This document shows positions 548 to 22,300 of a stretch of DNA of 24,564 bases, piece by piece. Both the position numbers and the translations under genes were made by a program. This DNA comes from a virus. The stretch is from IMG/VR virus record IMGVR_UViG_3300013126_000233, positions 1 through 24,564 of that record, one strand, 5' to 3'. Positions within the stretch are counted from its first letter, which is position 1; each line of letters begins with the position of its first letter. Below the pieces are notes generated by a model. The model did no database searches. It worked only from the letters and a program-made list of their open reading frames with translations, and had not been told where the DNA came from.

Positions 548-1429
548 ATGGGAATATTAGACACAGCGGGTAAGGTACTGGGCACAGTGGGTGCGATAGG
601 AAATGTGATTTCCACAAACCCCACACTGGGACGGCTATTTGGCGCGGGCTTGAGCAAGGGCGCAGAAGCCAATGACAAATTGCGTGCCTCCGCTAGATTT
701 TCCACACGGAACGGACAGACAGATTATAGGGTCAGGGTAGTTTTGCCTCCAAAGAGTGATCTCTGGAGCGATTTTTTTGGAGTTTATAAGGCCACAGTTG
801 ATTCAGGCGAAGGTCGCGCAACCAACAGCGTGCTGGAACCACTAGGCAATGCGGGGGGAGTGATATTTCCTTTGACGCCATCCATAATCATTCAACATTC
901 GGCCAGCTACACACCACTTAACATGCCACACAGCAATTATCCTCACTATGCATACGGACACAGCGAGGCCCCATCTTTCACAGTCAGCGCAGAATTTCCT
1001 GTGCAAAATGAGGAAGATGCCAGATACTGGGTGGCAATGTTGCATTTCTTTAGATCGGTAACCAAGATGTTCTTTGGTGGAGATCAAAATGATGGGCTCA
1101 AAGGCAACCCGCCGCCGATATTGCATCTGTCAGGATATGGCGATTATGTTTTCAACAACGTGCCAGTGGTAGTCACAAACTTCAACATAGATCTTAGGGC
1201 AGACGTGGACTACATTTGTACTTCGCAGAATACAGCAGGCAGGAACAATATCAATCCAAGGGTGGTTGTGAACACCGATGAGAATAAAACATGGGCTCCA
1301 ACTTTGAGTTTGGTGACCGTGCAATTGCAACCAATATATTCAAGAGATTCTGTGAAAAAATTCTCAATGAAGGATTTTGTCAACGGCAGGCTCAACGGCA
1401 AAGGCGAAAGGGGAATAGGTTACATCTAA
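548..1429 (+). CDS. Baseplate/tail-tube cap-like structural protein (gp48/gp54-type candidate)
   Basis: This 293-residue protein has no signal peptide. Its first 40 residues are Gly/Ala-rich and possibly helical. The core has a pattern I associate with a conserved marine T4-like virion protein: HSNYPHYAYGHSE (128-140), HFFRSVTKMFFGG (166-178), PPPILHLSGYGDYVFNNVPVVV (188-209), DVDYI (219-223) and a C-terminal PIYSR motif. Position immediately before gp53 and the hub genes suggests a baseplate or tube-initiation role, probably the gp48 tube cap or the related gp54. That assignment rests on context and memory, not on a diagnostic motif. The ATG at 548 follows AGGA at 538-541. It is the first gene after the late promoter at 481, and its stop overlaps the next start as TAATG. 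It could instead be another virion protein of the hub/tube junction. Confidence 0.7.
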   Translation: MGILDTAGKVLGTVGAIGNVISTNPTLGRLFGAGLSKGAEANDKLRASARFSTRNGQTDYRVRVVLPPKSDLWSDFFGVYKATVDSGEGRATNSVLEPLGNAGGVIFPLTPSIIIQHSASYTPLNMPHSNYPHYAYGHSEAPSFTVSAEFPVQNEEDARYWVAMLHFFRSVTKMFFGGDQNDGLKGNPPPILHLSGYGDYVFNNVPVVVTNFNIDLRADVDYICTSQNTAGRNNINPRVVVNTDENKTWAPTLSLVTVQLQPIYSRDSVKKFSMKDFVNGRLNGKGERGIGYI

Positions 1430-1728
1430 TGGCCACTTACAGCAACACAAGTCCCTATTTCAATACCACGCAGAACAACATCAGCCTTGATCTCTTACAG
1501 CCCAGGACCATTACCGCAGAGCTGGATGATGTCTCCTACACTATTGACCGGATATATGCTTATAGACCAGACCTTTTGGCCTATGACTTGTATGGCACCC
1601 CTCGCTTGTGGTGGGTCTTCGCGCAGAGGAATCCCAACTCCATTGAAGACCCAATTTATGATTTCTCGCCGGGAAAAATAATTCAATTGCCAAAATTGAG
1701 CAATCTAAAAAACGATCTAGGTTTTTAA
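1429..1728 (+). CDS. 53: Baseplate wedge subunit gp53
   Basis: The 99-residue product matches the gp53 family pattern: YTIDRIYAYRPDLLAYDLYG (37-56), LWWVFAQRNPN (60-70), IEDPIYDF (72-79) and a closing GKIIQLP (82-88). In T4, gp53 joins wedges around the hub during baseplate assembly. The frame is open upstream to 1291, but the ATG at 1429 is preferred because it overlaps the preceding stop as TAATG, an AGG lies nine bases upstream, and the family pattern begins just after it. The extra upstream codons would overlap the previous gene by 139 bases. At 99 residues it is about half the length of T4 gp53 (196 aa) and appears reduced to the core domain. It is followed after two bases by the hub candidate. 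Confidence 0.88.
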   Translation: MATYSNTSPYFNTTQNNISLDLLQPRTITAELDDVSYTIDRIYAYRPDLLAYDLYGTPRLWWVFAQRNPNSIEDPIYDFSPGKIIQLPKLSNLKNDLGF

Positions 1729-1730
1729 AA

Positions 1731-3860
1731 ATGGCCAACTACGGATTTGATATCAACATCGCCAAGGAGCTGGCAGGTGAATATGAAAAGGCCACAAACA
1801 CCACCAGGAAGATAGTCCTTGATTCACTTGAAAAAAATCAGCTTCATCAGTTTGCCTCGTACAACTACATCTTTACTTTGAGTGGGTTGAAAGAGTCAGA
1901 AATTAGGAATCCTGTATCCTTCATGACTTCAGCGCCACATGACGTCATAGCCAAGTCGGGAGGAATAGGTAATCCCGCACAAGGGAGCTCTCCGGTTCAA
2001 GAGGAGATAAGAACACTGCTCAACGACAGAGAGCAAGCCAGCATTGATAGGGCCAAGACTATTTTGAGTCAAGGCAGGGATATATATTTTGAAAGCGTCA
2101 ACATAGATTCAATACATGGATTTAATTCTGAGAGACGCACAGGATCAGTGACAAAGATAACCATGAGGTTGAATGAACCATCAGGGGTGACCATTCTTGA
2201 AAAACTTAAGGCCGCGGCCAACAATAGCGGATACAAGGACCATATAAGCGCTCCCTACCTGCTTACCTTGCAATTTAGGGGCTTTGATGAGCAGGGCAGG
2301 ATAATGACCGCAGATGCGCAAGCGACCAAAAGACATATCCCAATAAAGATAGTCAAAATGGGGATAAAAGTCAACACCGCGGGCGCCACTTATGATCTTG
2401 ATTGCATAGCATACAATGAGGCTCCTTATCTAAACAGGTACAATTACATCAGGACTAACATGCAGCTTACTGGAGCTGCCAACGGACTTAGGAGTTTCTT
2501 GCAAGATTTCACTAATAAATTAAATAAAATGACAGAGGACGAGGCCGATAGGAAAGTATTCACCAAAGGGATGCAGGACACCTATCAAATAACAGTACAC
2601 CCTTCATTTGCTGACGTGCCATTGAAAGTAGGAGCGGACCAAGTGAAAAATAGCAAGGCGGTAGCTTTAAATGACTATGAGGTTGATCCAGACACCACCT
2701 TCCTACGTCAACGTGAACAGGAATCCACAGCATACAAGTTCAATGTGGCCGGGGAGATCAACACCAACACCGCTATCATAAAAGTACTTGAAGAGGCAAT
2801 GACCAGCCTGCAGCCAGTACAAGAAGTATGGAAGGATTGGTTCCAAAAGACCACGGGAAATCTTAGGGGAAAAAATGGCAAGGATATATTGACCAATGTT
2901 GACATAGCAGGACTAAGCAATGATGATTTTACAGTTAAATGGTTCAAGATAAAAGCTAGCCTAGAAACCGATGTTAAAAGGTTTGACAAAGTGACTAAAG
3001 CACACCCAAAAACAATAAAATATCACATAGAACCTTATGACCTACATATTTTTAGGCTGGTGAGACCAGGACTGTCTTTGGGCGGCCAAAGTCAGGTGAA
3101 AGTCAAAAAGCTGTATGATTACATATTCACTGGGAACAACACAGACATAATCGATCTGGACATCAATTATAAGGTTGCCTGGTATGTGACCAAGCTGTCA
3201 CCAGTAAATCCACACAACAAAGACAGGATAGGATTTGAGGAGGATGTGGCGTTGTTATCACAGATTGGAGCAGAAGATCAAATCGAAGATCTATTGCCAA
3301 CACAGTCAGCTCCTGGATCTGTCCGCAGCACACGCTCTGGGTTGTTTGCCACGGAATTAAAACAAGACGTTGACCAGTTCATGGATGTGCTGACCAATCC
3401 CACTGCAGACATGGTTAAGGTTCAATTGAAGATCATTGGTGATCCATCATGGATAGGAGTGAGCCAATTCCTGCCTGTGAATATCGATCAGACCAACACA
3501 GGTGTGGGCACAGACAAAAATATTAAAGATTTAGGATTCGTTGGACAATGGAGTGACAAGCACAAAGCCTACAACACAGACATAGCCGACCCTATAATAA
3601 GATTGAATTTTAAAATGCCAGCCGATCTAGATGATACCAAAGGTGTGTATGAACTTGGCAGAACTCAAAGTGCCATCTTTTCCGGACTGTATCAGGTTTA
3701 TAAGGTCGAGAGCAATTTCCATAATGGCGCTTTCACACAGACGCTGCACATGACCAGGTTTAACAATCAATCGGACACTGCTAAGACGCAATCACTCACG
3801 GAGACATATTATATTTTTCCAGATGGCAGAACTGTACCGATTGCAACTGCGGAGATGTAA
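1731..3860 (+). CDS. Virion structural protein, baseplate hub candidate (gp27-position)
   Basis: This is a 709-residue soluble protein with no signal peptide, membrane helix or catalytic motif that I recognise. Notable segments are SYNYIFTLSGLKESEI (43-58), YDYIFTGNNTDIIDLDINYK (about 462-481) and VYKVESNFHNGAFTQTL near residues 656-672. The last resembles the closing strand of hub/tube-type domains in contractile tails (FxxGxFxQTL). I recall similar proteins annotated only as structural in marine T4-like phages. The location between gp53 and the gp5 spike gene, and the close coupling to gp5 through a TAATG overlap at 3858-3862, suggest the hub partner that carries gp5 (the job of gp27 in T4). 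That role is inference. The ATG at 1731 follows the gp53 stop by two bases, with AGG nine bases upstream. Arg codons here are mostly AGG. Confidence 0.72.
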   Translation: MANYGFDINIAKELAGEYEKATNTTRKIVLDSLEKNQLHQFASYNYIFTLSGLKESEIRNPVSFMTSAPHDVIAKSGGIGNPAQGSSPVQEEIRTLLNDREQASIDRAKTILSQGRDIYFESVNIDSIHGFNSERRTGSVTKITMRLNEPSGVTILEKLKAAANNSGYKDHISAPYLLTLQFRGFDEQGRIMTADAQATKRHIPIKIVKMGIKVNTAGATYDLDCIAYNEAPYLNRYNYIRTNMQLTGAANGLRSFLQDFTNKLNKMTEDEADRKVFTKGMQDTYQITVHPSFADVPLKVGADQVKNSKAVALNDYEVDPDTTFLRQREQESTAYKFNVAGEINTNTAIIKVLEEAMTSLQPVQEVWKDWFQKTTGNLRGKNGKDILTNVDIAGLSNDDFTVKWFKIKASLETDVKRFDKVTKAHPKTIKYHIEPYDLHIFRLVRPGLSLGGQSQVKVKKLYDYIFTGNNTDIIDLDINYKVAWYVTKLSPVNPHNKDRIGFEEDVALLSQIGAEDQIEDLLPTQSAPGSVRSTRSGLFATELKQDVDQFMDVLTNPTADMVKVQLKIIGDPSWIGVSQFLPVNIDQTNTGVGTDKNIKDLGFVGQWSDKHKAYNTDIADPIIRLNFKMPADLDDTKGVYELGRTQSAIFSGLYQVYKVESNFHNGAFTQTLHMTRFNNQSDTAKTQSLTETYYIFPDGRTVPIATAEM

Positions 3861-6346
3861 TGAGTTTAAAGACACACCTTGGGGGAGATGCAGCCACACC
3901 AGGACTTCCTATAGAAGACGCAAGTTTTGGCGTGGTCGATCCAGGTCCTTACGTGGGAGTGGTCAAATCAAACCAAGATCCATTGCGTATGGGCAGGCTA
4001 GGAGTCTACATAGAATCACTGGCGGGGTACGGGGGATCATCCACAGGAAAATTAGTCACTTGCGAATACCTGGCGCCTTTCTATGGCGCAAAGACAGCCA
4101 GATACTTAGGCGAGAGCGATCCCTACAACTACAAAGCATCACAACATTCATACGGCATGTGGATGGTACCCCCAGATATAGATACCAAGGTCTTGGTGAT
4201 ATTTGCAAAGGGAAAAGCAGATCAGGCATTTTGGATAGGATGCATACAGGAACCACTGACCAACCACATGGTGCCAGGATTAGCGGCCACTGACAGGACG
4301 GGATTACAAGACACAGGGTCAGACGTGGACAGCAAGCAAACCATGTATGGCACAGAAATCCTACCGGCCGGGGAAATTAACAGGGCAACACTGGACGCCA
4401 TAGGCGGCAATGCAGTGGATCCTGTGTTGAAGAAGCCCATACATCCGTTCGCAGAAACGCTGAGGCAGCAGGGATTGATACAAGATGACGTTAGAGGCAC
4501 CACCACTTCCTCTGCCAGGAGAGAAAGCCCAAGCAATGTGTTTGGTATCAGCACCCCAGGACGCAGGGATACCAGTTCTACGCCCAGGAACGTGGGAGTG
4601 GCCAATTCTAAGCATGAAGAAATTATTGACAGGCTGTCTGGCCACACCTTTGTCATGGACGATGGTGACAACATTGGTGACAATCAACTCATAAGGTTAA
4701 GATCCGCCTCAGGGCACCAACTATTGTTGCATGACACCAAGGGAGTTGTATACCTAGCCAATGGGTCAGGAAACGTTTGGATGGAGTTCAGCGCCAACGG
4801 ATCTATTGACATATACTCCGGTGGAGGCGTAAACATCAGATCCAGAGGTGACATGAACTTTCACAGTGACACCAACATCAACATGTTCGCCAGGAAACAG
4901 ATCAAGTTGAGCAGCGTGGGAAAATTAGTCATTGATGGTGGTGCGGTGCAAACATATGCCGACTATGATGTTCAAACACAGGCCAGGTTCGGCAGCATCA
5001 CCACCAAGGCGCCGGAAGGTTCGATAGTTTCATATGCGGCAGAAACCCAATTACACATGGCCACCGGGCAGACACACATAACTGGCAAGCAGGTGCACTT
5101 CAACAGCATAGCCACCAGTCCCAACATCATAGCCACGTACGAAAGGACCATCGCGCAAGATCCCTCAGGCACAGGAACCAAGAGAGAAGCAATACCAGAC
5201 GTCAATCCATCCAACAAGTACACCTATGGTCCTATCAAGGTTGACCAAAATGCCAACATCACCATGTCTGGCATGCGGATCTGTACACACGAGCCATTCC
5301 CGTTCCATTTTGACAAAGTTGTGAGCTTCAAGGGCACTAGCCCCGGTCCTTTGAGCAACGTGCCCGGCACGGCCGAGTTCATAGCTCAGAGAAACAGATT
5401 GAGCGACAATCCAAGTAGGAGATTCATGCAGCTTGCGGCCGACATGCAGCATGAATGTGAAAAAAGAGGATTGGGGCAATTACAATCAGCAGTGAACAAA
5501 GTGTCAAACGTGATCAAGCAGCCCATAGGAGACATACAAACAATACAAAAAGTTTGCAATGAGATTGCCAATGATTATAACAAACTTTATGGTTTGCCCG
5601 ATGGTGGTCCGTTCAATATCTCTGCCATAGCGGAGGGAGTCAGCAGCACCATTCAACAGACAGTGAATGCCTTGACCGGAGGCGTGCAGGATGTCTTGGG
5701 CAAAACACTTTTCATAGATCAAGGAGGACTTCTGTACACAACGGGCAATTTGGCCAAGGCCATATCATCACCACTGAATTTTACTACCGGCGCACTGAGC
5801 ACAGTGAGAGACATTGTGTCCACTTCCGGCAGTGTGTTGGGCGCATTTGGTCAGGTCAAGGATAGATTGTTCGGAGTGGAAGGCATAGATGATCTAGGCC
5901 AGGTTGGTATTGCCAACTCATTCATCGCCGGACCTGGTCCTTTTACAGGAGAAAATATTTTTGGAAATATATTCAAAGCCGGATCGCCAAACGTGGAAGG
6001 TATTTTTTCGGGCTTTGGACAGATACCAGGAATAGGCCAGATACCAGGAATAGGCCAGATACCAGGACTGGGTCAGCTGGCATCACAGATACCCGGATTT
6101 GGAGCAGTCAATCAGGCCCTAGGCACTGTCAACATGGTCAACAGCATCTACAAGTCAGTGATGGGATCTGACATCACTGCAGTGACGGAGATAAGTAGTC
6201 TGGTGACGGGGTTTGGCAGTGCTATAACTTCAGAGATCGCAAGCATAGCCACCAACCTAGGTAGTGTTTTTGGATTTGGAGGTTTTAATCCCGACATAGG
6301 AGGAATTGTTGATGTTGGTTTTGGAGGATTTTCATCACCGTTCTAG
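3860..6346 (+). CDS. 5: Baseplate central spike gp5-like, lacking the lysozyme domain
   Basis: This 828-residue protein has a gp5/VgrG layout. An OB-fold region spans about 31-135, with YVGVVKSNQDPLRMGRLGVY (31-50) and WIGCIQEP (125-132). A linker around 180-240 reads HPFAETLRQQGLIQDDVRGT followed by SARRESPSNVFGISTPGRRD. A beta-helix needle follows at about 253-417, with GHTFVMDD, GHQLLLHD, GNVWMEFSANGSIDIYSGG and short repeating strands. In T4 gp5 a lysozyme of about 170 residues sits between the OB fold and the helix; here the linker is only about 110 residues with no glycosidase pattern, so wall-degrading activity appears absent. After the needle comes a His/Glu motif (CTHEPFPFHFD, 475-485), a helical region (about 510-575) and a hydrophobic Gly-rich tail with tandem QIPGIG units. 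The start overlaps the previous stop as TAATG, with GGAG five bases upstream. Confidence 0.9.
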   Translation: MSLKTHLGGDAATPGLPIEDASFGVVDPGPYVGVVKSNQDPLRMGRLGVYIESLAGYGGSSTGKLVTCEYLAPFYGAKTARYLGESDPYNYKASQHSYGMWMVPPDIDTKVLVIFAKGKADQAFWIGCIQEPLTNHMVPGLAATDRTGLQDTGSDVDSKQTMYGTEILPAGEINRATLDAIGGNAVDPVLKKPIHPFAETLRQQGLIQDDVRGTTTSSARRESPSNVFGISTPGRRDTSSTPRNVGVANSKHEEIIDRLSGHTFVMDDGDNIGDNQLIRLRSASGHQLLLHDTKGVVYLANGSGNVWMEFSANGSIDIYSGGGVNIRSRGDMNFHSDTNINMFARKQIKLSSVGKLVIDGGAVQTYADYDVQTQARFGSITTKAPEGSIVSYAAETQLHMATGQTHITGKQVHFNSIATSPNIIATYERTIAQDPSGTGTKREAIPDVNPSNKYTYGPIKVDQNANITMSGMRICTHEPFPFHFDKVVSFKGTSPGPLSNVPGTAEFIAQRNRLSDNPSRRFMQLAADMQHECEKRGLGQLQSAVNKVSNVIKQPIGDIQTIQKVCNEIANDYNKLYGLPDGGPFNISAIAEGVSSTIQQTVNALTGGVQDVLGKTLFIDQGGLLYTTGNLAKAISSPLNFTTGALSTVRDIVSTSGSVLGAFGQVKDRLFGVEGIDDLGQVGIANSFIAGPGPFTGENIFGNIFKAGSPNVEGIFSGFGQIPGIGQIPGIGQIPGLGQLASQIPGFGAVNQALGTVNMVNSIYKSVMGSDITAVTEISSLVTGFGSAITSEIASIATNLGSVFGFGGFNPDIGGIVDVGFGGFSSPF
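6020..6073 (+). repeat. Three tandem 18-base units in gp5 tail
   Basis: CAGATACCAGGAATAGGC occurs twice without change (6020-6037 and 6038-6055). A third copy (6056-6073) diverges in its last bases. The units are in frame and encode QIPGIG, QIPGIG and QIPGLG. A degenerate SQIPGFG follows 15 bases later. Identical DNA in the first two copies suggests recent slippage or duplication. Confidence 0.95.
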
Positions 6347-6358
6347 GAATTTAAAAAT

Positions 6359-6766
6359 ATGGCATACGTAAATAAAAATTTAAGTGCAAATAAAACACAG
6401 GTGTTCAAGGGATTCAGCTCCAGATCCAGCAACACGAATTTTAAGCTGTATGATTTTGAATTAATTAAACAAGATTTGATCAATAGATTAAGTGTGCGCA
6501 AGGGAGAAAGGGTGGAAAATCCCGAATTCGGAACCATAATTTACGGGCTTATATTTGAGCCCATGACCGATGCAGTGAAACAAGCGGTTGCCGACGACAT
6601 TTCTGAAAATCTCAACGCAGATCCCAGGCTCAGCACCAAGGAAATCATAGTAAGCGAGACAGAGCATGGCATATCCGTGCAGGCCACCATAGAATACGTG
6701 CCTTACAACATCACAGAGAAATTGATATTCAGTTTTGACGAAAACGCTGCTTTGCGCCTTTCTTAA
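6359..6766 (+). CDS. 25: Baseplate wedge subunit gp25
   Basis: The 135-residue product belongs to the gp25 family of contractile injection systems (phage tails, type VI secretion TssE). The signature RVENPEFGTIIYGLIFEP (51-68), followed by Met-Thr-Asp, is the conserved stretch of this family, and YDFELIKQDLINRL (31-44) is the usual lead-in helix. Length is close to T4 gp25 (132 aa). gp25 anchors the first sheath layer to the gp6/gp7/gp53 wedge core. The ATG at 6359 has AGGA at 6345-6348, partly overlapping the gp5 stop, so translation of the two may be linked. It is probably the last gene of the unit started at the 481 promoter, though no terminator is visible and read-through into gp6 is likely. 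Confidence 0.93.
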   Translation: MAYVNKNLSANKTQVFKGFSSRSSNTNFKLYDFELIKQDLINRLSVRKGERVENPEFGTIIYGLIFEPMTDAVKQAVADDISENLNADPRLSTKEIIVSETEHGISVQATIEYVPYNITEKLIFSFDENAALRLS

Positions 6767-6819: not shown

Positions 6820-9800
6820 ATGGCCTCTACAGATAGACAAAATCGCTTGCTTGTAGCCGAGGATTGGCGTAAGATATACACTGCTTTCCAACAGGCAGAT
6901 TTCAAATCCTACGATTTTGAGACGCTACGGCGTACCATGGTGTCATATCTCAGGGAGAATTATCCAGATGACTTTAATGATTTTGTTGAGTCTTCGGAGT
7001 ATGTTGCTCTAATAGATCTAATCGCCTACGTCGCTCAGTCACTCAGCTTCAGGGTGGACTTAAATGCACGAGAAAACTTTATCGAAACCGCCAGTAGAAG
7101 AGATTCAATATTACGACTGGCCAGACTGATCAACTACAATGCCAAGAGAAACAAGTCTGCCACCGGACTGCTGAAATTGGTGTCGGTTCGAACAACGCAG
7201 AATGTTAATGACAGCTCAGGTACCAATTTAAGCAATTCAACTATAATATGGAATGACAGTACCAATGGAAATTACAGGGAGCAGATAATCAACATACTGA
7301 ATGCAACCAATCCCGATACACAGAGATTCGGTAAGCCTCTCGAAGCAGACAGGATAGGTGGAATCAAGACAGAGGTGTACACAATCAATACCACCAATGT
7401 TGACATACCGATGTTCCAATTTTCGAAAAACATTAGTGGCATCACTAGAAATTTTGAGGTGTGCCCATGCACTATATCTAATTCTGAATCTATATATGAG
7501 CAAGCTCCAATCACTGGAGGAGGTATGACATATACCTATAGGACAGATGGAGCTGGCGATTCTAGCCCCAACACAGGATTTTTCTTCTTATTCAAGCAAG
7601 GATCTTTGGCCAGCAACATATTTTCTATAGACCAGCCCACCACCAACTATGTGAAAAGTTTAGCAATAAACAACATCAACAACGACGACGTGTGGCTTTA
7701 CGAGCTTGATGACTTTGGACAGATAGAGAAACTCTGGACCAGAGTTCCGGATCTTGTAGGCAACAACACAATTTACAACTCACTGTCTGCTGGAGTGAGA
7801 GACATATACAATGTTGTCACCAAAAACAACGACGCCATTGATCTTGTGTTCGGAGATGGAAACTTCGCAAATATACCATCGGGAACATTCAGGGCCTATT
7901 ACAGGATCAGCGACAACGCAAAATATTCTATACAGCCCGCGGATATGCAAAACATACAATTCAACATGCAGTATCAGGATGCCAATGGATCTCTTCAAAC
8001 TCTCACAGTAGTGGCATCATTGCAACAGAGTGTGTACAACTCGGCGGCCACCGAAAGCGATGAAAGTATTAGGACAAAAGCTCCCCAGGTTTACTATTCG
8101 CAAAATAGAATGATAACAGCAGAGGACTACAACGTGGTGCCATTGTCAGCATCTCAGGAAATCATCAAAGTCAAAGCAGTCAACAGGAGCGCCAGCGGCA
8201 TCAGTAGGGCAAAGGAGATTATAGATCCAACAGGTTCTTACAGCAACGTGTCTGTATTTGCCGATGACGGTATACTGTATAGGGAGGAAAGCGCCCCCCA
8301 GTTCACTTTCACTTTCACAAACAGAAATGAGATATTGGACACAATTAACAGACAAGTGGAGCTTAAATTAACGGAGGCGTATGCACGTCAATTTTTCTAT
8401 GTAAAATATGGCACAAAAAATTTATCCACATTGGCCGCCAGCTGGTTCAGCACATCTGTGGGCACCAACACCAATACCGGTTACTTCCAGGCAGCAGGTC
8501 CTTTGGTCGTAGGAGATTTTGCCACCAGCAATTTGAAATATGCTGTGCCTGGAGCATTGATTAAATTTACGTCACCCGACACTAGGAAGTTCTTAAATGG
8601 AAAACTCGTTACGCTAGGCACGGATCTTGCAGAGGACAGGCAATGGGCCAAGATCTCGGGTGTGGTCGGCGATGGAGCAAATGGGGGAGCAGGCAACTTA
8701 GAGTCAGGAGCGGGACCTATAACGATCAATGACATTATTCCAGCCGGAGCGCTGCTGAATGCAGTGTTTCCAAAATTTTCTACGGTATTTGATTCGTCAT
8801 TGAAAACAGATCTGCAGGACAGGATAGAAACTTTTGAGGAATTTGCACTGAGATACGACGAAGAAGACGCAAGCTGGAAAATAATCACAGCAGCAAACCT
8901 AAGCACGTCGTCAACATTTGAATTGGATTACGCTGGCGACACCACATCAGCCAACCTTGACGCAAGCTGGTGGTTCAAATTCACCAATGATGGAAACACA
9001 TACACAGTCACTTACCGCAAAATAGATTACATTTATGAATCGGCAGGCGAAAATAAATTTCATTTTGATAAAACTGAAAGAATTTACGATTACATTACCG
9101 GCAGATCAGTCAAAGACACTGTAAAAATTTTAAAAAGCAACACGGTGCCCAGCACTGGATCGCCTGTGGGGTATCCGATAGAGTGGCAAGTGGTGGATAT
9201 CGTTCAGGAGACGGATGGGTATCAAGATAATAGAAAGGTAAAGGTAGGTTTTTTTGACGATGACGACGATGGCGTAGTGGACAATCCAGATATCTTTGAT
9301 ATAATTGTTGAACCAAACTTGAACGTAAGCACCAAATACGTATTTTTCCAAAAATATGTCAGTTATGACAATATAGAAAGATACAGGCCCTGTTCCGCAA
9401 GCAATTTCATAGTGACACAAAATGAAAGCACCATAGCGCTTCCCGGCAGCTATGCCAACGGACAACTATTTTATTTTTATGATGCGTCAGAGGATGTCAT
9501 AAAAATTTACAACAAAGACTTGGGAGTTTTGCAAACATCTACAGATTATTATGCGAGGGTAGGCAGAGGCTCGCTGGAATTCCAATACAAGCACTTTGCA
9601 GGGCAAGAAGTCAGGATAGATCCTTCGCAAACTAACATAATGGATATCTACATGCTTGAAAGATCATATGATCAGTTGTACAGAACATGGTTGAGCCAGG
9701 GCGGGGACGAGCCAACACCTTCCACTGCTGATCAGCTGAGGATATCATATTCTGGCGTGTTGAATCCTTTGAAAGGGTTGTCGGATCAGATCATATACCA

Positions 9801-10365
9801 TCCTGTGAAATATAAAATACTTTTTGGCAATCGAGCAGATGAGGAGTTTCAGGCCACTTTCAAGGTAGTAAAAAATTCGTCTACCAATGTGACCAATGCA
9901 CTAATAAAGACGAGAGTGATTCGTGCTATAAATGAATTTTTTGCCCTGAACAATTTTGATTTTGGTGACACTTTTTATTTTACGGAATTAGCTGCTTACA
10001 TACATTCACAACTGGCCCCGGACCTTCTTACTGTGGTCATTGTGCCAAACCAAACCGAACAAGTTTTTGGATCTTTATTTCAGATAAGCAGCGCCGCTGA
10101 TGAGATTTTCGTTAGTGGGGCCACAGTCGATAATGTAGTGATAATTGATGCCATTGGTGCCAATCAACTTGCCGCCAGTGGACAAGTTGTGACCAGCACC
10201 ACAGGCACAACGACCAGCAATAGGTCAACGTCTGCAGTATCATCTACGATTGGTTCAAATTCTACAACTAGTTACACATCAAGTGCTAGTGGTAGCAGCG
10301 GAAGTTCTAGCAGTGGCTCAAGCGGAAGTTCAGGCAGCAGTGGTAGCAGTGGCACAGGATATTAG
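6820..10365 (+). CDS. 6: Baseplate wedge subunit gp6
   Basis: The 1181-residue protein begins with the gp6 N-terminal pattern: LLVAEDWRKIYTAFQQADFK, YDFETLRRTMVSYLRENYPDDF, SSEYVALIDLIAYVAQSLSFRVDLNARENF and ASRRDSILRLARLINY within the first 120 residues. In T4, gp6 (660 aa) forms the inner ring that joins neighbouring wedges. This protein is nearly twice that length. The added middle part (about 600-900) includes FEEFALRYDEEDASWKII and an Asp-rich DDDDDGVVDNPDIFDI stretch near 813-828. The C-terminal part (about 970-1090) resumes a wedge-like fold. The last 55 residues are Ser/Thr/Gly-rich and end in SSG repeats. The ATG at 6820 has no good ribosome site but fits the start of the family pattern. 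The stop is two bases before the next ATG. Confidence 0.93.
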   Translation: MASTDRQNRLLVAEDWRKIYTAFQQADFKSYDFETLRRTMVSYLRENYPDDFNDFVESSEYVALIDLIAYVAQSLSFRVDLNARENFIETASRRDSILRLARLINYNAKRNKSATGLLKLVSVRTTQNVNDSSGTNLSNSTIIWNDSTNGNYREQIINILNATNPDTQRFGKPLEADRIGGIKTEVYTINTTNVDIPMFQFSKNISGITRNFEVCPCTISNSESIYEQAPITGGGMTYTYRTDGAGDSSPNTGFFFLFKQGSLASNIFSIDQPTTNYVKSLAINNINNDDVWLYELDDFGQIEKLWTRVPDLVGNNTIYNSLSAGVRDIYNVVTKNNDAIDLVFGDGNFANIPSGTFRAYYRISDNAKYSIQPADMQNIQFNMQYQDANGSLQTLTVVASLQQSVYNSAATESDESIRTKAPQVYYSQNRMITAEDYNVVPLSASQEIIKVKAVNRSASGISRAKEIIDPTGSYSNVSVFADDGILYREESAPQFTFTFTNRNEILDTINRQVELKLTEAYARQFFYVKYGTKNLSTLAASWFSTSVGTNTNTGYFQAAGPLVVGDFATSNLKYAVPGALIKFTSPDTRKFLNGKLVTLGTDLAEDRQWAKISGVVGDGANGGAGNLESGAGPITINDIIPAGALLNAVFPKFSTVFDSSLKTDLQDRIETFEEFALRYDEEDASWKIITAANLSTSSTFELDYAGDTTSANLDASWWFKFTNDGNTYTVTYRKIDYIYESAGENKFHFDKTERIYDYITGRSVKDTVKILKSNTVPSTGSPVGYPIEWQVVDIVQETDGYQDNRKVKVGFFDDDDDGVVDNPDIFDIIVEPNLNVSTKYVFFQKYVSYDNIERYRPCSASNFIVTQNESTIALPGSYANGQLFYFYDASEDVIKIYNKDLGVLQTSTDYYARVGRGSLEFQYKHFAGQEVRIDPSQTNIMDIYMLERSYDQLYRTWLSQGGDEPTPSTADQLRISYSGVLNPLKGLSDQIIYHPVKYKILFGNRADEEFQATFKVVKNSSTNVTNALIKTRVIRAINEFFALNNFDFGDTFYFTELAAYIHSQLAPDLLTVVIVPNQTEQVFGSLFQISSAADEIFVSGATVDNVVIIDAIGANQLAASGQVVTSTTGTTTSNRSTSAVSSTIGSNSTTSYTSSASGSSGSSSSGSSGSSGSSGSSGTGY
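10196..10362 (+). repeat. Ser/Thr/Gly low-complexity tail of gp6
   Basis: About 55 codons at the end of gp6 encode almost only Ser, Thr and Gly. The final 30 or so are SSG-type units using mixed AGC, AGT, TCA and TCT codons. It is probably a flexible, unstructured tail. Mixed codon choice suggests the protein sequence rather than a DNA microsatellite is maintained. Confidence 0.85.
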
Positions 10366-10367
10366 CC

Positions 10368-13300
10368 ATGGTAGATTCACCAATCAATAGCAAGACTAAT
10401 TACGAAGAGATCGTGAATGAGGATGGCACGATATTAAGGAGATCGATAGCCCATCTCCCATCTTTCTATCGTACTGATACAAATCATAGATTTTTGACCA
10501 GCACACTAGATCAATTGATACAGCCAGGCAGTCTTACCAGGCTAGACGGTTACATCGGTAGCACATATGCCTACACCAGGAAATCTACTGACCAGTACAT
10601 CACAAGTGCGAGCAAAGATAGAGATGACTATCAACTCGAGCCAGCGGTAACTTACACCGACAAAGACACTTCTTCAATCAATCCAGAGGATCAAGTAAAG
10701 TTTACTGCGACGTATGATGACTACATAAATCAGATTAAATTTTTTGGAGGCAATGTAGATAACCACGACAGGTTGAACAAGGAAGAGGTTTACAACTGGA
10801 ACCCCGCGGTAGATTTTGATAAACTTATAAATTATAGAGAATATTATTGGCTACCCGAAGGGCCGAATCCTATACTGATATCAAACAATGGACCAAATTC
10901 ATCGCAGGAAATCAAAGTGTTGGCCCAGGGACAAGCGGCATATCAATTCAGCACGCATGCCGGAAATAATCCATCTATAACTCTATACAGAGGCAACACA
11001 TATAAATTTATTATTGATGCTGCCGGCCATCCGTTTTACATCATGACTGAGCCATTCAAGACAGGATTTGCGGAGGATGGAAGCACATCAGTGATTTACA
11101 GCAGCGGAGTAACCAACAATGGGGCCAGTTTAGGCACGTTAACTTTTACAGTGCCGTCAGCAGCTCCAGATGTGTTGTACTACCAATGCGGCAATCACCA
11201 AGCAATGCAGGGAATTTTCATCGTAAAAACAATCTCATCCACTACTAAAATAAATCCCGCGCAGGAAATATTGGGATCAAAAAACTACGTCACAGGATCT
11301 GGCGTGCATCTAAGCAATGGCATGAAATTAAGATTTGGAGACAATGTAATAAGCGAAACATACAGGAACAAAGAATTTTATGTGGAAGGTGTAGGACAAT
11401 CGATCACACTCACGGATTCATCAACTCTGATCACGCCCGAATCGTATGCAACTGAGAGCACCGAACTTTATGACACTGTACAGTATGATACAAGGCCCTA
11501 CGCCATTAGTTTTTACAGGCCAGAGACACCAGACTACATCACCATCAAGAGAGACAGCATTGATGGCAATGCTTGGAGCAGATACAACAGATGGTTCCAC
11601 AGGGCAGTAATAGATGCAACTGCCGAGGCAAATGGGTACACTCCAAATCTGCTGGAGTCTGACAGGGCGAAAAGACCCATTATAGAATTCGATTCTGGAT
11701 TAAGATTGTATTATCACGGAATCACCGTAAAGAGATCCATTACATTGATAGACACAGTAACCACAGACGCATTCTCTTCAATGGTAAGACAAACTGGATA
11801 TATTGTTGATGGGGTTGAACTCCAGGATGGCATGAGGATATTGCTGACCAATGACCTAGACCCACGAGCAAACAACAAGATCTACACAGTGAATTTTGTT
11901 TCAATTGGTAATCAATCCGTTATATCACTGACTCTTGCCTCTGATAACCTTGCAGGGCCACAGGATGGAGAATCTGTTTTCGTTGAATTAGGCACACTCA
12001 ACCAAGGAAAAACTTTTTTCTATGACTCTGCACAATCATCTTGGGTGACCGGACAGCAAAAAACAAAATTAAATCAACAACCATTATTCAACTTGTATGA
12101 TGACAATTCAGTGCCTCTCAACGATTCAATCGTATATCCAAATTCTACTTTCGAAGGAGCCAATGTCTTTGCATATCAGGTGTCTGACTCTGCTACCACC
12201 GACACGGTGCTGGGACTAAAAGTCAAATATAGTTCCATAAACAACGTTGGAAACATGATATTCACAACCGATATATCTTCCGGATCTTTTAGCTATAAAA
12301 GTGGAGAACAGTTTGTAAAGAAAAATTTTTCCACGGCACATGTCGCATATAGCAATAGTAATGGCGCAGTGCAATTCAAGACATCATGGGTGAAAAGGAA
12401 CGAGCTCAGCAAACAAAGGGTGATAAGGACTTTTGTTGTGGACAACAGTGAATTAAAAAGATTCCCCATTGACGTTTATAATAACAGTGCCAGTATTCAG
12501 GATCTACAGGTACACGTGGACGTCAACGACCAGGCTCAAAGCCTTGGCACTGATTATAACTTGATAAACGGTACTACAAATAAATTTGTAATCTTCTCAA
12601 AAAACTTATCCATAAATGACCTAGTCAAGATACAATGTTTTTCAAGTGACAAGAAGTTACAGAATAAAGGATTGTATGAAATCCCAGAGAATCTTTCAAC
12701 AAATCCTCTCAATGAACAGATATCGGAATTTACATTTGGACAGGTGTTAAATCATGTGCATGATATAAACGAAAAGAACGAGACACTAGTTGGAAGCATA
12801 CCAGGAAATAGCAACCTGCGAGACATACCCGAAGTAAGATTACAGGGTGGCACTATTTTACAACATTCAGCAGCATTGCCAGCGGCTATGTTCTTGTTGA
12901 TTGATCAAAATGCAAATGCCATATCTGCAATTGATTACTGTTCACTTGAATACCAAAAATTTAAAGAAAATTTTTTATCCCAGGCCAGTGATTTGGCAAG
13001 AGAAGGTACAGTGGCAAGCAAGGTTGACACCATCATCAAAAATATGATAGGCGATAGAACATCATCTTTCCCATTCTTTTATGAGGACATGATAGGATAC
13101 GGAGAGAGGACTACCACTCGAAACTATACAGTTCAAGATGCCACTCAAACTCAATTCGCAATAGATTCACAATTTGATACCACGGTAGTAAGCAATAGGG
13201 CAGTGTATATCTATCTTAATGATGTTTTATTAATATTAGGATTAGATTATAACTTTAGCTCAGTTGATGACAGCGTTGAGATTACTTGTGGCCTTGCCGA

Positions 13301-16300
13301 GGGAGATATCATTACTATCAAGGACTATGACAATACCACAGGAAGTCTTGTTCCGCCCACGCCCACCAAGTTAGGACTTTATCCAAAATACAAGCCCGAG
13401 ATAGTGACTGACAAAACATATTTAACACCCACTCAACTCATTATAGGACACGACGGAAGTCGCACTGTGGCTTATGGCGATTATAGGGACGATTTACTCA
13501 TGGAGCTGGAAAAGAGAATTTACAATAATTGCAAGACTCAATATAATACTGACTTATTGACATTGAACGAGGTTATACCATCAGTTTTTAACCAAGGCGA
13601 ATATAAATTATCTGAGGTCGACAATATATTGAGCTATGATTTTTATACCTGGACGGGCAGAAATAGTTTAGATTATCAATATAATGATATCTATGCTGCG
13701 GGCAACGAATTCACATACAACTATGCAAAGAACAAAGATGCAATTAAACAAGAATATCTTCCTGGACACTGGAGAGGCATTTACAACTATTTCTATGACA
13801 CTGACCGACCGCACACCCACCCATGGGAAATGCTTGGATACAGTCAAAGACCTATTTGGTGGGCAGAGCATTATGGCCCTGCGCCATACAGTTCGGGAAA
13901 CGAATTGTTGTGGAATGATCTAGCAGCAGGTTTCGACCATGGACTGCATAAAAGTATCAAGAGATACATCAGGCCAAACCTCTTAAATTATTTGCCCGTG
14001 GATGTTAATGGGAATTTAAAATCACCATTGGCCATTGGACTTGTGACTCAATATGAACAGAGAGGCGTGGATGCAGCGTGGAAATTCGGAGACCAATCAC
14101 CAGTTGAAACCGCATGGCGCAAAAGTTCACAATATCCATATTCGATTATGAAGTTGTTGGCACTGACCAAGCCGGCAAGGTTTTTTGGAACTTTTCTTGA
14201 CAACAGCAGGTTGTCTACCAATCTAGGCGGGAACATAATAGATGGCCAAACTCGTGTTGCACAGACTCTGCGCAGTGCAAAATATCATTTGGAGACACTC
14301 ACGGATTCCACCACTGGAGTGACTACTAGATACATGACCGCAGGATACCAACCATTTGTGGCCAATTATCTTATTAAAAATAATCTAGATCCGGCAACTA
14401 ATTTTTATGACAAAATGAAAAATCTCAATGTGCAGCTTGCCTACAAACTGGGAGGATTTACAGACAAGCAAAATCTTAAGGTATTGACAGATAGTGTGAG
14501 CCCTGGATCAACAGCCGGATCGCAGTTCATACCTGACGAGAATTATAAAATATTATTTAGATCAAGTAATCCTGTGGACACGTTTGATTATTCGGGTGTG
14601 CTTGTTGAACTAAACAGCGCAGTAGCGAATGATGGCAGCACTCTCGAAGGTGGATACAAGATCATTGGATACAACACAATCAAACCTTATTTTCAGATAT
14701 TTGAACCTTTACAAAATAATAATAGTTACAAACTTGAAGTCGGCAGCGCTACGGCTGTAGTTTACAAAGATTGGTCAAATAGAGTGAAAATTGTACCCTA
14801 TGGTACTGTATTCAGAGACACGCAATCATTAGTAAACTTTTTAATAGGATACGGTAAATTTTTAGAATCACGAGGATTTGTATTTGAAAGATTCAGCAAT
14901 GAATTGGGAGAGACCATGGATTGGGTGATGTCGGCAAAGGAGTTCTTGTATTGGACTCGTCAAGGATGGGCTCACGGATCCGCAATCACCCTAAGTCCAG
15001 GCGCAGAAGGATTCAGTCTTAACACCGTGGACAGCGTGATTGGTAAATTACAAAATCTGCAAGGTGAATACACTGTGCTAGATTCCTCAGGCAAGATTAT
15101 TAACACCCAATCAATTAGCACCAAGAGGATTGGCAGCACATTTGAGATAGTAAGCAAAAATACAGAGGTTGGGATTTACCACGTCACCATGAATGCGGTG
15201 CAAAAAGAACATGTACTTCTCTTCGACAATGTGACTGTGTTTTCGGATATTATATTACAATTGGTCACCGGGTTCCGACAAGAGAGACTCAAGCTGATTG
15301 GATGGAAGACTGGAGATTGGAACGGAGATTACTACTCTCCTGGATTTATGTTTGATGAAGCAAAGATCAATGCATGGACAGCCAATACAGATTATCAGAT
15401 TGGCAGCACAATAGAATACAACGCAAAATTTTATGTGGCAAAAACAAATCATAATTCAGGTAATGTTTTCAATAGCGAGTATTGGCAAAGCAAAAATGAA
15501 AAGCCAGCTTCTCAATTAATACCTAATTTTGATTACAAGATTTCACAATTTAATGATTTTTATGACCTAGAGAGTGATAATTTTGATGAGGGGCAACAAA
15601 AATTAGCTCAGCATATTACAGGATACCAGAGTAGAGATTATTTAGAAAATTTATTCTTGAACGATGTAAGCCAGTACAAGTTCTATCAGGGATTTATAAG
15701 AGAGAAAGGTACGCAAAACGCGATTGACAAGCTGCTCAAGGCAAAGTTTCTGGATGAGAACATCTCTCTAAGCATTTATCCCGAATGGATGATCAAAGTT
15801 GGGGAGTTCGGCAACATACAAGGCAAGAATTCTATACAGATACGTATGCCAGACGACGTGTTTGTCAACAATATACAAAGCATTGAACTGCTGGACAATG
15901 ACGCGGACGATGTTGATTGGATCAAGTCAGTAGCTGTTCGGAAAAGTGAAATGTATCAAACCCCACTTGAATATACGGCCGCCCAAACTTTTAAAAAATA
16001 TGATTACTCTCTTGAGGGAGTGGATAGAGATGTTATTCAAAAATTTCGTACGGCGGGTTATCCTAGACTGTCAGACGTACAGCATACTGTGTTTAATGAG
16101 CAGGATCTTTTAAATCTCGACATGAACCAGATACAAAAGGATGAGTTGGCATGGATTGCCAAAAAATCCAACAATGACTGGGATGTCAAAAGATTAACTT
16201 TCACAGGATGTAAAATCAATGCCATATCAGCAATTAATAATTTCACAGGTATAATAATAAGTCTCACATCAGTACACTCTCTTGTGGTTGGAGATTACAT

Positions 16301-19300
16301 TGGCATATCTAACAGCCAATTCAGAAACTTAAATGGCGTGTACAGGGTATTGTCGATTCCCACCAATAAAAGCATCGTGATAGCTTTTGATCAAGCCAAC
16401 ACGATAACACGTAATGGCATAGGCGTTGACGGATCAACGCAAGACAGCTACGGAAATCTTTATAATTTCGTATCTGTGAGGTTGTCGTCAATGGACAACG
16501 TCAATGATGCTATATCCTATAAGGGATACAGGGAAAGAAACATCGATGTGCCAGGCGACAAGGTGTTTGTGGACAACGTTGGAAACAAATGGAAGATTTA
16601 TGAGAAAGTAGACCCATATGTCACTGTGTCACTGCCGGCACCAGACACGCCCAACAATCAGGAGTTTGGCTACAGGATAGTGAGTCGCAACGATGGCAAG
16701 TTTTTGATAGTGTCTGCCCCAGGCATGGAGCAAGGAACCATACATTTCTTTCGTCGCTCAACAAACAGTGCCGGCACCACTTACGACATAGTGGCCAGCG
16801 TGTCCATGACCGACAACGATGATTATACTTCTAGGCTGGGAGAAAGTTTATCAATAAGCACGGATGAAAATATAATAGTAGCTGGGGCTCCCTACAATAA
16901 CACAATCGTGCCAGGCAGCGACAGTTCCAGGCATCAGAATGCTGGACTGATAAAGACCTACATCTGGAACAACTTCAGCAAGAATTATGATTCCTTAAAC
17001 ACTATAGTGCCACCGTCTGACAGCAGCACTGTATTAAGCAACCTTAACTTTGGTTGGTCAACCGCGGTGGCAGAGCCAACAGTGGGCAGCCTGAGAAGTA
17101 CATTGCCAAAATATCTTTTTGTTGGTGCTCCGGGATACAGCAGCGAGAATGGAATAGTTTACGTGTACACCTGGGGGCTGGCGAACGATAGCACCTATTC
17201 TCAATGGACACAGACATCTTCGATTCAAAGTAGTGAGCCCGGTACTGGCAAGAGATTTGGTCACAGGATAGCAGTGAATGACAATGGAGATATATTAGCA
17301 ATAAGCTCGGTGAGTCCGGGAAATGCAGGCAAGGTTGAAATATTCACAAGTAATCATCAATATAATGATGGAAGCACAACACTAATATTCACACATAGAC
17401 AGACTCTAGTTGGCGTGAGCACAGACGGTAGTTCTAATGAATTAAATTTTGGAGACAGCATAGCAATGAGCAAGGATGGCACTACCCTTATTGTGTCAGC
17501 TTCTGGATTTGACAATAACTCACAGGACGATGCGGGAGCAGTGTATTATTACAAATGGAACGCAGATGCCTCCACAAACACTTACACATTGCAACAGACT
17601 ATACCGGCTCCAGAAAATAAAACCAACATGAGATTTGGATCATCGTTGAGTATTAATCATACCGCTAATAGATTAGTGATAGGAGCAGAAAGTTTTAGCA
17701 ACGAGAGAGTGATGAAATTTGACAACGGATCTACGACCTTGGATCTGCAAGACACTCGGATAGTGGATCTAAATATAGGATCGGGTGGAGCTTTCACAGC
17801 CACCAAATACAACAACAAGTTTGTGATAGATCAGAAATTGATTACTGATCGTGTCAGCACCAACGACGATTTCGGAAAAGGAGTATGTGTCACTGATACT
17901 GGTGTCTATGTCGGGGCACCCGGCGATTCTCTTTTACAAGATGATGGATCAACACTTGGTACCAATAATGGATCTGTGGCCATATATGACCTAAAGACAC
18001 CCGGTCAATATGCATGGCAGTCCCAAGTTACGGAACAAGAACTTGTAGACAGCAGCAAGATCGAATCTGCTTTTATATTTGACACTGCTAAAAATGAAAT
18101 TATAGATTATCTGGATTATTATGATCCGATAAAAGGCAGGATATTAGGGTTGGCCGATAGAGAAATTAATTATAAAACAGAATGGGATCCAGCTATCTAT
18201 ACTGTTGGCACCGCAGGAAAAACTGTCAGCACCAACACTGCCTGGGGTGAGGAGCATGTTGGGGAGGTTTGGTGGGATATGAGCCAGGCTAGATGGGTAT
18301 GGTATGAGCAAGGAGGACAAGAACATAAAACTAAAAATTGGGGTAATTTGTTTCCAGGCTCGAATATAAATGTGTACGAATGGGTTGAATCTACTTTATT
18401 GCCGTCAGAATGGGCCATAAGAGCCGACACCACAGAAGGCTTGTCAAGGAGAATATCGGGCAATCCTCTGCATCCGGACAACACTGTTCTCACGGTGAAA
18501 CAAAAATATGACGCCAACTCGGACAGTTTCCTCAACCATTATTATTTCTGGGTAAGGAATTCAGTATTCTTGCCTGCAAGAAACGTATCAGCGACTGCAA
18601 GGAAAAATACAACTGCATACATTGCCAACATTATAACAAATCCTCTAGGCAGTGGAGTGAAATATTTCACAATATCAGATAGAAATTCTATCATCACTTT
18701 CAATGTGAGAGATAGCTTGGTCAATCGGAACACAGTTCTTAACATAAATTATAGAGAAAACGAGAACGAATCAGATGTCCACACAGTTTGGAAAATCTTC
18801 AAAGAGGGCGACAAGGACGATAGGCCCAATGAGCAAGTTGAAAAGAAATGGTGGGACAGCCTTATAGGAGAGGATGATATAGGCAACGAGGTACCTGATC
18901 TAGCCTTGCCTCTAAATCAACGCTACGGCAACAATATCAGACCAAGGCAGAGTTGGTACAAGGACAGGTTCGCCGCACTAAAACAGATCATAAACTACAG
19001 CAACACAGTTCTACGTAAGTATCAACTGGCATACAGTATAAATTTTGTAAACCTTAATTCTGCAGATCCAGAGCCGCTGCCGACCTCTGGAGAATGGGAC
19101 ATTGCAGTTGATAATTATGCGGATCTAACTTTTGTCAACACAAATGATATCAGTGGATCAATCAATGCATTGGTCAGAGCAGATGAGCAAAACAGCAAAG
19201 GCTACTGGGCCATATACAACTGGAATGGTACCGAATGGAACAGATTTAAAGTGCAAACCTACAAAACAAACAATTACTACAGTTTTGTGGATTGGTATGA

Positions 19301-22300
19301 CACAGGAATAGACAGTGATGTGATTATTGATCGCCAGCTGAGCTTCCAATATCAACTGGACACGCTGAGAGATCTAGATGCAGGAAAATATGTAAAAATC
19401 TTAAATTCAGACACAGGCGGGTGGAAGATATTCTTAAAAACAGCAGATGGATTTAAAAATTGCGCCACACAGAACGGCACCATTCAACTGAGCAATGCAC
19501 TTTACAACTACGATATCAACAATGTGGGTTTCGAAGATGGAGACCCGTTTGATAATAACTTTTTTGATCAACAACCATCGATTGAAACGAAAAAGATACT
19601 GACTGCTTTGAGAGACGATATATTTGTTGGTGATTTGAAAGTAGAATACAATAATTTATTTTTTATTGGTTTGCGAAGAGTTCTGGAAGAGCAGCTTTAT
19701 GTAGACTGGTTATTTAAAACTTCATTCATCAATGTGACAAACAGTTTGAGACCCCTGGATCAAAGAAAAACATACAAGATAGGTACAGATGATTATGTGG
19801 AGAGTTATATAAACGAAGTCAAACCCTTCCACACAAAGATAAGAGAGTACAAATTAGGTTTCACAGGCACCGAGTTGCAGGATGGAATCTATACAGATTT
19901 TGATTTGCCAGCTTTCTATGATGGAACACGAATTAGAAACATCAACACCAGCACTGACACCTCAACATTGTCGCAATATCCTTATCGCTTCTGGAGAGAC
20001 AATCATAAGAAATATGTGTCAACTATCACAGTAACAAATGGTGGCAGTGGTTACGACACTGCTCCAACGGTCATACTAGTTGGAGGTACCACAACCAGCG
20101 TTGGTCCATTCGCTTTGCTTGGAACAAGCAATAGTGGAGACACGTCTGGAGAATATGGATATTTCTATCCTCTATACACTTCCGAGACAGATGCGGAATC
20201 AGCGGATATCTTGGCAGGTGGTTCTGGAGTAAGCCAAATTTTCACATTTGCCGAGCATGCAGGCACTGAATTCTATATGCCATTATTGGATCAAAACATA
20301 GCTATAGCCGATAGGCCGGCAGGATATATCTTATACTCTGCAGCGGGAAACACACAGGCAACGGCCATAGCTTCTATCAGAAACGGGTCAGTGAGCAGAA
20401 TAACAGTGCTGACCCCTGGATCCAATTACACTGCCACTCCAACAGTGGTGCTGATAGGAGGAGCCGCGGACGGCTCAACGCCCGCAGACACTGCCAAGGC
20501 CTATGCAAATTTACAGAATGATCTGGTTAGAGATGTATCTACAATCATCAAATTTGACAGAGTGAAAAGCACAGCAACGATTTTAGAGTGGGCCGAGTCA
20601 ACTGCGTATGCTTACAATGACCTGTTGCGTCGTGGAAACAATTTTTATAAGGTGATCACAGGTTTCACCAGCACTGCAGATTTCAATGACGGATTGGATA
20701 ATCTATTAAAATTAAGGGGAGATGAACCATATATTACTGCAGCAGAGAGAACCCTTGGACTTTATAGTCCTTCCACAGGCATGCCGGGCAATGAGCTTTC
20801 ACAGTTGATGACCGGAGTGGATTATGGTGGGGTCATGGTAACCGGATTGGCCTTCAACAGCAGCCAAGGATGGGACAGGTCACTTTGGTATGAGGCACCG
20901 TGGGACAACTACGGGCTCAGCAGGGTGCAGACTTTTTATGGTGATGGAAGCAGCACTGCATTCACCTTTGCCACCGCCCCGTTGGCAACGGATGTGTACA
21001 CCGTGTACGTGAATGGCATCAGGCAAACCTCGCTGGTGTTCAGGGGAGATGGATCGACCAAGACATTCACAGTGATCCCAGATGACAGCTCGGTGGTTGG
21101 CAATGGTGATAAAGTAGAATTCATACCATTTGATGATGACGGAGTGTTGACGCCCACAGATGACCGAACGCTAGACACCCTGATAAGCGGAGGATTATTT
21201 GGTTCCGCAGTTGGTATAGCGCCAAGTGACGTGATACTGGAGGGCGATGGTTTTGTCACGCCAGACACAAGTTATGCTCCAGAAGAGAATGTACCTGGAT
21301 CAATGTTTGACACAGTGGATATCAAGGTCTACACAGCACCAGAATCGGGAGTGCCTTTTATAGTTACAAAAAATTACATAGCCGATGGATCAACTAGAGT
21401 GTTTGATATCGGCCAAGCTCCGGGCACACAGGCGTCAGTCATTGTCACATTGGATGGCCTTACACTGGAATCGGAAGACGCCGGGGATAGCACAGCGTCG
21501 ACACACATTGTAGACATAACAAACCAAACAGTTACATTCACTGCTGAGCCATCGGCAGGTCAAAAAATATCTATAAAAAGTTTTGCCATATCAGGCAAAA
21601 ATTATATGGTGTTGAATACATTTTTAGGCGATGGATCAACAGTATCATTCACAACGTCAGCGAGAGAAACGTTCCAGTTGGACAGTGCTATGAGTCAGCT
21701 TTATGTCACGGTGGACGGGGTCCCCACCAGCAATTACACTTACACAGTGACAGGTAAATTGATTACAATTACTTTGCACACCGGTGATGGATCAACGGCC
21801 AATCCTCCAGCGTCAGGCAAGTCTATCCAGATAGCTGCGTTCAATCAACCAGCAGGCAGCGGCGTTGCACAGGCAGAGATAAGATCTGAACAATTTACAT
21901 ATGATGGCAGCACCAATAGAATAACTTTAACATATCCTCCAGGCGCCATCGGCCCTTACTCAGGACTGACCATGATACAACTTGGAGGCAAGATATTGAG
22001 AGGCCCGGACAACACATATTATGCTGGCGATGGAAGCACCACCACATATAGCCTTGGCACAGATCCGGCAAACACGGTGACCGATGCCAGCCAGGTGGAG
22101 GTTTATTTAAATGGCACCAAGAAAGATCTTTTCACAGATTACACAGTGGACATTGGCGCTCAGCAGGTCATATTCGTGGCGTCTCCGGGCAGCTCGGACG
22201 TGATAGCAGTTTCCGTTTTATTGAATAATCATTACTATAACACAGGTAATGACATCATATTAAAGCCGTCACAGCTGTCAGCGGATGGCATAGCACTGAC

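Follow-up and report, generated by a model that had tools for sequence, protein, structure and literature searches.

Does a giant tail protein of a marine phage carry a blue-copper site, and what would such a site do there? The question is raised by the 24,564 nucleotides of viral DNA analyzed here (IMG/VR record IMGVR_UViG_3300013126_000233; hereafter the 24.6-kb window), in which an earlier note had read the complete ligand set of a type-1 copper centre within a protein that it assigned to the baseplate. The window holds baseplate genes in a T4-like order (gp53, gp5-like hub, gp25, gp6), followed by the gene of the giant protein in question:

1291..1728, plus strand: gp53-like baseplate wedge protein (Phage_gp53 just above cut-off; phrog_7145, 4.8e-28)
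3860..6346, plus strand: gp5-like baseplate hub with OB domain (Phage_base_V 1.1e-05, above cut-off; phrog_13211)
6359..6766, plus strand: gp25-like baseplate wedge protein (Pfam GPW_gp25 1.2e-08, above cut-off)
6820..10365, plus strand: gp6-like baseplate wedge subunit, the upstream neighbour (phrog_10646, E=6.8e-290)
10368..23261, plus strand: virion protein of 4297 amino acids, host of the module, directly after gp6 (PHROG 10938 'virion structural protein'; phrog_10938, E=0)

The gp6-like protein shares 43-45% identity with PA5oct and Phosso proteins that carry a baseplate wedge annotation, and homologues of the giant protein are encoded directly after a baseplate wedge gene in the jumbo phages Phosso, Atu_ph07, RaK2, PA5oct and Vibrio phage 2.275.O. 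The PA5oct homologue is annotated as a virion protein with mass-spectrometric detection. From this annotation and the gene order, we infer that the 4297-residue protein is a baseplate-associated virion protein. An AF2 model of its residues 301-760, for which a gp7-like identity had been considered, reached a pLDDT of 61, and no solved relatives of residues 301-1710 (profile A2) were found. Elsewhere in the giant protein, residues 2352-2393 match the FG-GAP repeat above cut-off, residues 1669-1699 resemble a chitin-binding-type module (CBM5/12) below threshold, and the C-terminal part (window positions ~20900-23200) contains repeated 'GDGST..F' beta modules. Upstream, the gp6-like protein has a low-complexity, Ser/Gly-rich C-terminal tail (SSGSSGSSG; 10260-10365), and the gp5-like protein carries, near its end, GIGQIP repeats encoded by a perfect 18-bp tandem repeat of 2.7 copies (6020-6067).

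The putative copper site lies near the N terminus of the giant protein, in a module to which the profile of the module family gives its only match in the window:

10860..11267, plus strand: variable insertion site, residues about 165-300 (alignment with the jumbo-phage homologues L182-L186)
10917..11240, plus strand: cupredoxin-like module, residues about 184-292 (AF2, Foldseek, profile match of 140.8 bits)
11028..11030, plus strand: His221, the first ligand, within GHPFYI and directly ahead of a strand (His in 119/120 distinct modules)
11187..11189, plus strand: Cys274, thiolate ligand, at the end of the seventh strand (Cys in 118/120)
11196..11198, plus strand: His277, second His ligand (His in 119/120)
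11205..11207, plus strand: Met280, axial ligand (Met in 120/120)

The four residues are exactly where the earlier note had placed them in the reading frame 10368-23261. Its range of 10965-11231 (residues 200-288) does enclose the site but is slightly too short for the module, which covers residues about 184-292 (10917-11240). In blue-copper proteins, these four side chains meet at one copper ion, and the proposed amicyanin spacing of the last three, C-x2-H-x2-M, is present in the module.

A short motif of this kind could arise by chance in an unrelated beta domain, a reading with which the weak matches of the module family to PF00127 and TIGR02657 would agree. However, C-x2-H-x2-M occurs once in the 4297 residues, against 0.0009 occurrences expected from composition, and the whole protein contains 8 Cys. 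A six-frame search of the window returned four further matches, all in other frames and several with stop codons. Of 120 distinct modules collected from contigs, phage isolates and cellular sequences, 117 have all four ligands, and the four rank within the top eight positions for conservation. Free replacement of the ligands in homologues, which would have spoken against a metal site, is thus not what the family shows. Moreover, the codons at the ligand sites vary synonymously (TGT/TGC for Cys, CAT/CAC for His), which indicates selection on the Cys and His residues themselves. This codon variation and the rank of the four ligands among the most conserved positions put the motif beyond chance; the predicted fold and ligand topology, described below, also argue against coincidence, to which we assign a negligible probability. 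Chance occurrence of C-x2-H-x2-M is ruled out by the ligand conservation data.

The first scan, which used the module domain as the query, gave 58 distinct viral modules, with the ligands conserved in 57 (first His), 57 (Cys), 58 (second His) and 58 (Met). Because this query contained the module sequence, the scan was repeated with the N-terminal flank alone (residues 20-166). The orthologues chosen in this manner carry the module in 79 of 79 complete loci, one further locus being cut by a contig end, and retain His221, Cys274, His277 and Met280 in 55/55, 53/55, 54/55 and 55/55 distinct sequences, respectively. Cys274 is the only conserved Cys within residues 1-2300: it is kept at 98%, versus 3-82% for the other five Cys of that region. 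The exceptions among these orthologues are L127 (with L037), in which Cys is replaced by Gly although its near relative L128 has the Cys, and L119, which has Ser for Cys and Asn for His. A third natural variant, L050, has Met in place of His. In each of these variants, the module is otherwise intact. A diverged copy of the module in S-CAM3, outside the 120-module count, lacks the Met. These natural variants and the S-CAM3 copy indicate that the fold is viable without the full site.

The fold was modelled with AF2 from a 33-sequence alignment of the module (A1). The resulting model of 108 amino acids has a pLDDT of 91.3 and eight strands. His221 (model residue 38) stands just before the fifth strand (40-43), while Cys274, His277 and Met280 (model residues 91, 94 and 97) lie between the last two strands (86-91 and 98-104). 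Judged by the topology of the model, this is the cupredoxin layout, in which the first His precedes an inner strand and the last loop bears Cys, His and Met. In a Foldseek search of the PDB, the top matches were AcoP, a pseudoazurin with an amicyanin loop, rusticyanin, plastocyanin, a small laccase and amicyanin, with probabilities mostly of 0.94-1.00 and with modest E values (about 1e-3 to 2e-2) and TM-scores (0.37-0.55); some immunoglobulin-type folds were also among the matches. The predicted fold is cupredoxin-like, as the earlier note expected: an eight-strand Greek-key beta-sandwich, with mostly blue-copper proteins as structural matches. Among viral entries, Foldseek matched the module fold to short 'beta-sandwich proteins' from pithovirus- and marseillevirus-like records (E 3e-7 to 2e-5).

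Sequence comparisons place the module at some distance from the curated families. An hhalign comparison of the module family with eight cellular PF00127 domains gave a probability of 45 (P=2e-4), aligning both His ligands and the Cys, with a Met loop of different length. A PDB sequence search with the single module domain returned noise alone; with the A1 profile, two protein-G-type constructs ranked first, azurin and pseudoazurin following weakly. PF00127 was matched weakly by 2 of 33 module members (best E=0.0024) and the amicyanin model TIGR02657 by 5 of 33 (best 0.002), the window domain matching neither. Pfam PF25489, the At5g54830-like domain family named after a plant protein, was matched by 28 of 33 members (best 2.6e-07); the window domain scored 22.1 and 25.1 bits, below the 27-bit cut-off, which the relatives from Halobellus reach (27.1 bits). 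The fold and the ligand set are already known, and the phage module family is caught at threshold by no curated model that we tried.

Amicyanin, pseudoazurin and plastocyanin share with the module the predicted eight-strand beta fold, the His/Cys/His/Met ligands and a ligand loop between the last two strands, and amicyanin also shares the C-x2-H-x2-M loop. These small blue-copper proteins are soluble electron carriers, whereas the module is a domain of a giant virion protein. Furthermore, the classic small proteins have Asn after the first His, as do most of the cellular PF00127 members that we fetched, but the module has Pro at this position (116/120 distinct modules). By its score below PF00127 and by this Pro, the module sequence departs from textbook plastocyanin. 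The Pro is reminiscent of multicopper oxidases, in which the first type-1 ligand is followed by Pro in an 'HPF/HPIHLHG' motif; the 'hPfyi' of the module profile aligned, weakly (E=0.63), with the 'HPIHLHG' of the copper oxidase 6vox. Unlike these enzymes, the module has neither the HxH type-2/3 ligands nor the catalytic cluster, and its C-x2-H-x2-M loop differs from their long loop. In sequence, its first His-Pro pair thus resembles multicopper oxidases and its Cys-His-Met loop amicyanin.

A tblastn search with the module found relatives in 340 of 50,697 phage records, nearly all of them marine cyanophages, bearing out the suggestion in the earlier note that other marine phages have related modules. 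In Kyanoviridae, the module forms the C terminus of gp9, the connector between baseplate wedge and tail fibre; other relatives occur in tail fibres of phages and in two members of the Autographiviridae, P-SCSP2 and P-GSP1. The good domains from isolate phages have the H-C-H-M set in 18 of 18 cases. The gp9 domain is the same module, with the four ligands and a tail/baseplate context; it ends a protein of ~400 amino acids, whereas the window module is inserted near the N terminus of an unrelated protein of 4297. In cyanophages, the gene after gp9 encodes a wedge subunit (L202-L213) with weaker matches to the module profile and an H...C-x2-H-x2-M of its own (e.g., YYYCKNHRYMSG), which suggests, at the sequence level, that the baseplate of cyanophages contains a further cupredoxin-like domain.

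The cellular relatives, from bacteria and archaea, are mostly secreted or surface-type proteins, and they have the tetrad in 17 of 17 cases, a count that is biased for Cys because the search pattern included it. Among them are L086, a small Jejuia protein that looks like a lipoprotein, the giant surface-type proteins L087 and L089 of Halobellus, and L092, which is of the calcium-repeat type. Four loci filed under Pelagibacter, Porticoccaceae and Betaproteobacteria MAGs (L082-L085) code for the giant phage protein itself, module included, and they are probably viral contigs binned with bacteria.

The module is not a fixed part of the giant protein. It is absent from the homologous protein in all five sampled jumbo phages (5/5), RaK2 and PA5oct among them. 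In the alignment, similarity extends up to residue ~160 and returns on the far side of the module. The entire stretch of about residues 165-388 is missing from RaK2 and Vibrio phage 2.275.O; Phosso and Atu_ph07 have, where the module would be, a different short sequence, with a 'GDG' motif like that of the C-terminal modules of the giant protein; and PA5oct has a shorter sequence there. The variable site therefore holds the module here and other short sequence or nothing in the jumbo-phage homologues. Since these homologues lack it, we regard the module as inserted in this marine clade, and since the same protein occurs in other phages without it, the module is not core to the baseplate machine in general.

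This behaviour would also fit a metal-free, cupredoxin-like beta-sandwich that serves adhesion or docking and keeps the four residues for packing or by shared descent. Such a module could be exchanged for other short sequence or lost, as at the insertion site of the jumbo phages, and would tolerate the three ligand-loss variants with their otherwise intact modules; it would also accord with virion assembly in the cytoplasm, where free copper is scarce. On the other hand, a lone Cys, which is easily lost, is kept in 118 of 120 modules while neighbouring positions vary freely, and it is retained in proteins of viruses, bacteria and archaea whose architectures differ widely. The synonymous codon changes at Cys and His point in the same direction, and we judge the metal-free reading to be rather unlikely, though it is the strongest of the alternatives.

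At the other extreme, the full ligand set with its axial Met and amicyanin spacing could constitute a redox-active type-1 copper centre exchanging an electron at the cell surface, for instance as a sensor that triggers contraction. We find this improbable. No redox partner or electron-transfer gene was found in the 24.6-kb window, and the module is present in short-tailed phages and in fibres as well. The Pro after the first His removes the backbone amide that, in classic sites, hydrogen-bonds the Cys sulphur. In addition, other contractile phages have the same protein without the module, so contraction can be triggered in its absence.

A role in metal acquisition can be imagined by analogy. 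In the tail fibres of phages (T4 gp37; alterophage R22Y), HxH iron sites place transition-metal ligands in host-contact proteins, and a 'Trojan Horse' hypothesis of iron in phage tails has been put forward for marine phages (PMC11705849); copper or another metal in the tail might likewise act as a lure, or be scavenged, and be recognized by host metal receptors. The recurrence of the module in host-contact proteins (gp9, tail fibres) would suit such a function. Nevertheless, we know of no copper-receptor link for these hosts, a buried type-1 site would hold its copper tightly and expose little of it, and the HxH iron sites are octahedral His sites in fibre trimers, whereas the site in the module is of the Cys-containing cupredoxin type. 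We therefore consider this the least probable of the functional readings, and a very improbable one.

The simplest reading is a metal-binding module, because selection has kept the four blue-copper ligands and a lone Cys in a Cys-poor protein. We propose that residues about 184-292 probably form an accessory, surface-type cupredoxin module with a predicted copper-binding, structural or adhesive role in a giant baseplate-associated virion protein. What the analysis shows is the identity and conservation of the ligands, the predicted fold, the insertion behaviour and the spread in tail proteins. A metal-stabilized cupredoxin module on the virion exterior is, from sequence and model, the most likely arrangement. 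The virion protein would be made metal-free in the host cytoplasm, and, near the time of lysis or later, each module would take up one ion, which we infer to be copper. This ion would link the last loop to the loop that precedes the fifth strand, and the beta-sandwich held by copper would serve attachment within the tail or to the cell surface rather than electron transfer.

The literature agrees with the expectation that the module is functionally undescribed: the open-access literature searched, which most subscription journals lie outside, yielded no paper that deals with cupredoxins in the tails of cyanophages. The sole co-mention of both terms there was in unrelated passages of a paper on Borgs, and the literature searched did not confirm that Knickkopf/Skeletor sets a precedent for plastocyanin-like domains outside the cell.

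Hundreds of cultured marine cyanophages have relatives of the module in their tail proteins, and the particles of these phages may therefore carry copper in their tails. A wider proposal, that marine myoviruses are copper proteins, is possible but doubtful: gp9, the wedge protein that follows it and the giant protein would each have type-1 centres, so that one virion would hold tens of copper ions, required for its stability or for host contact. Since many carrier phages are in culture, the copper question is directly testable, with the natural ligand-loss variants as ready-made controls. The module family spans extracellular proteins of viruses, bacteria and archaea. If the sites are occupied, a Cys-containing metal site would stand beside the HxH iron sites that have been discussed in phage tails, abundant viruses of the ocean would have blue-copper-type centres in their infection apparatus, and the stability or adsorption of these phages would be tied to the copper chemistry of seawater.
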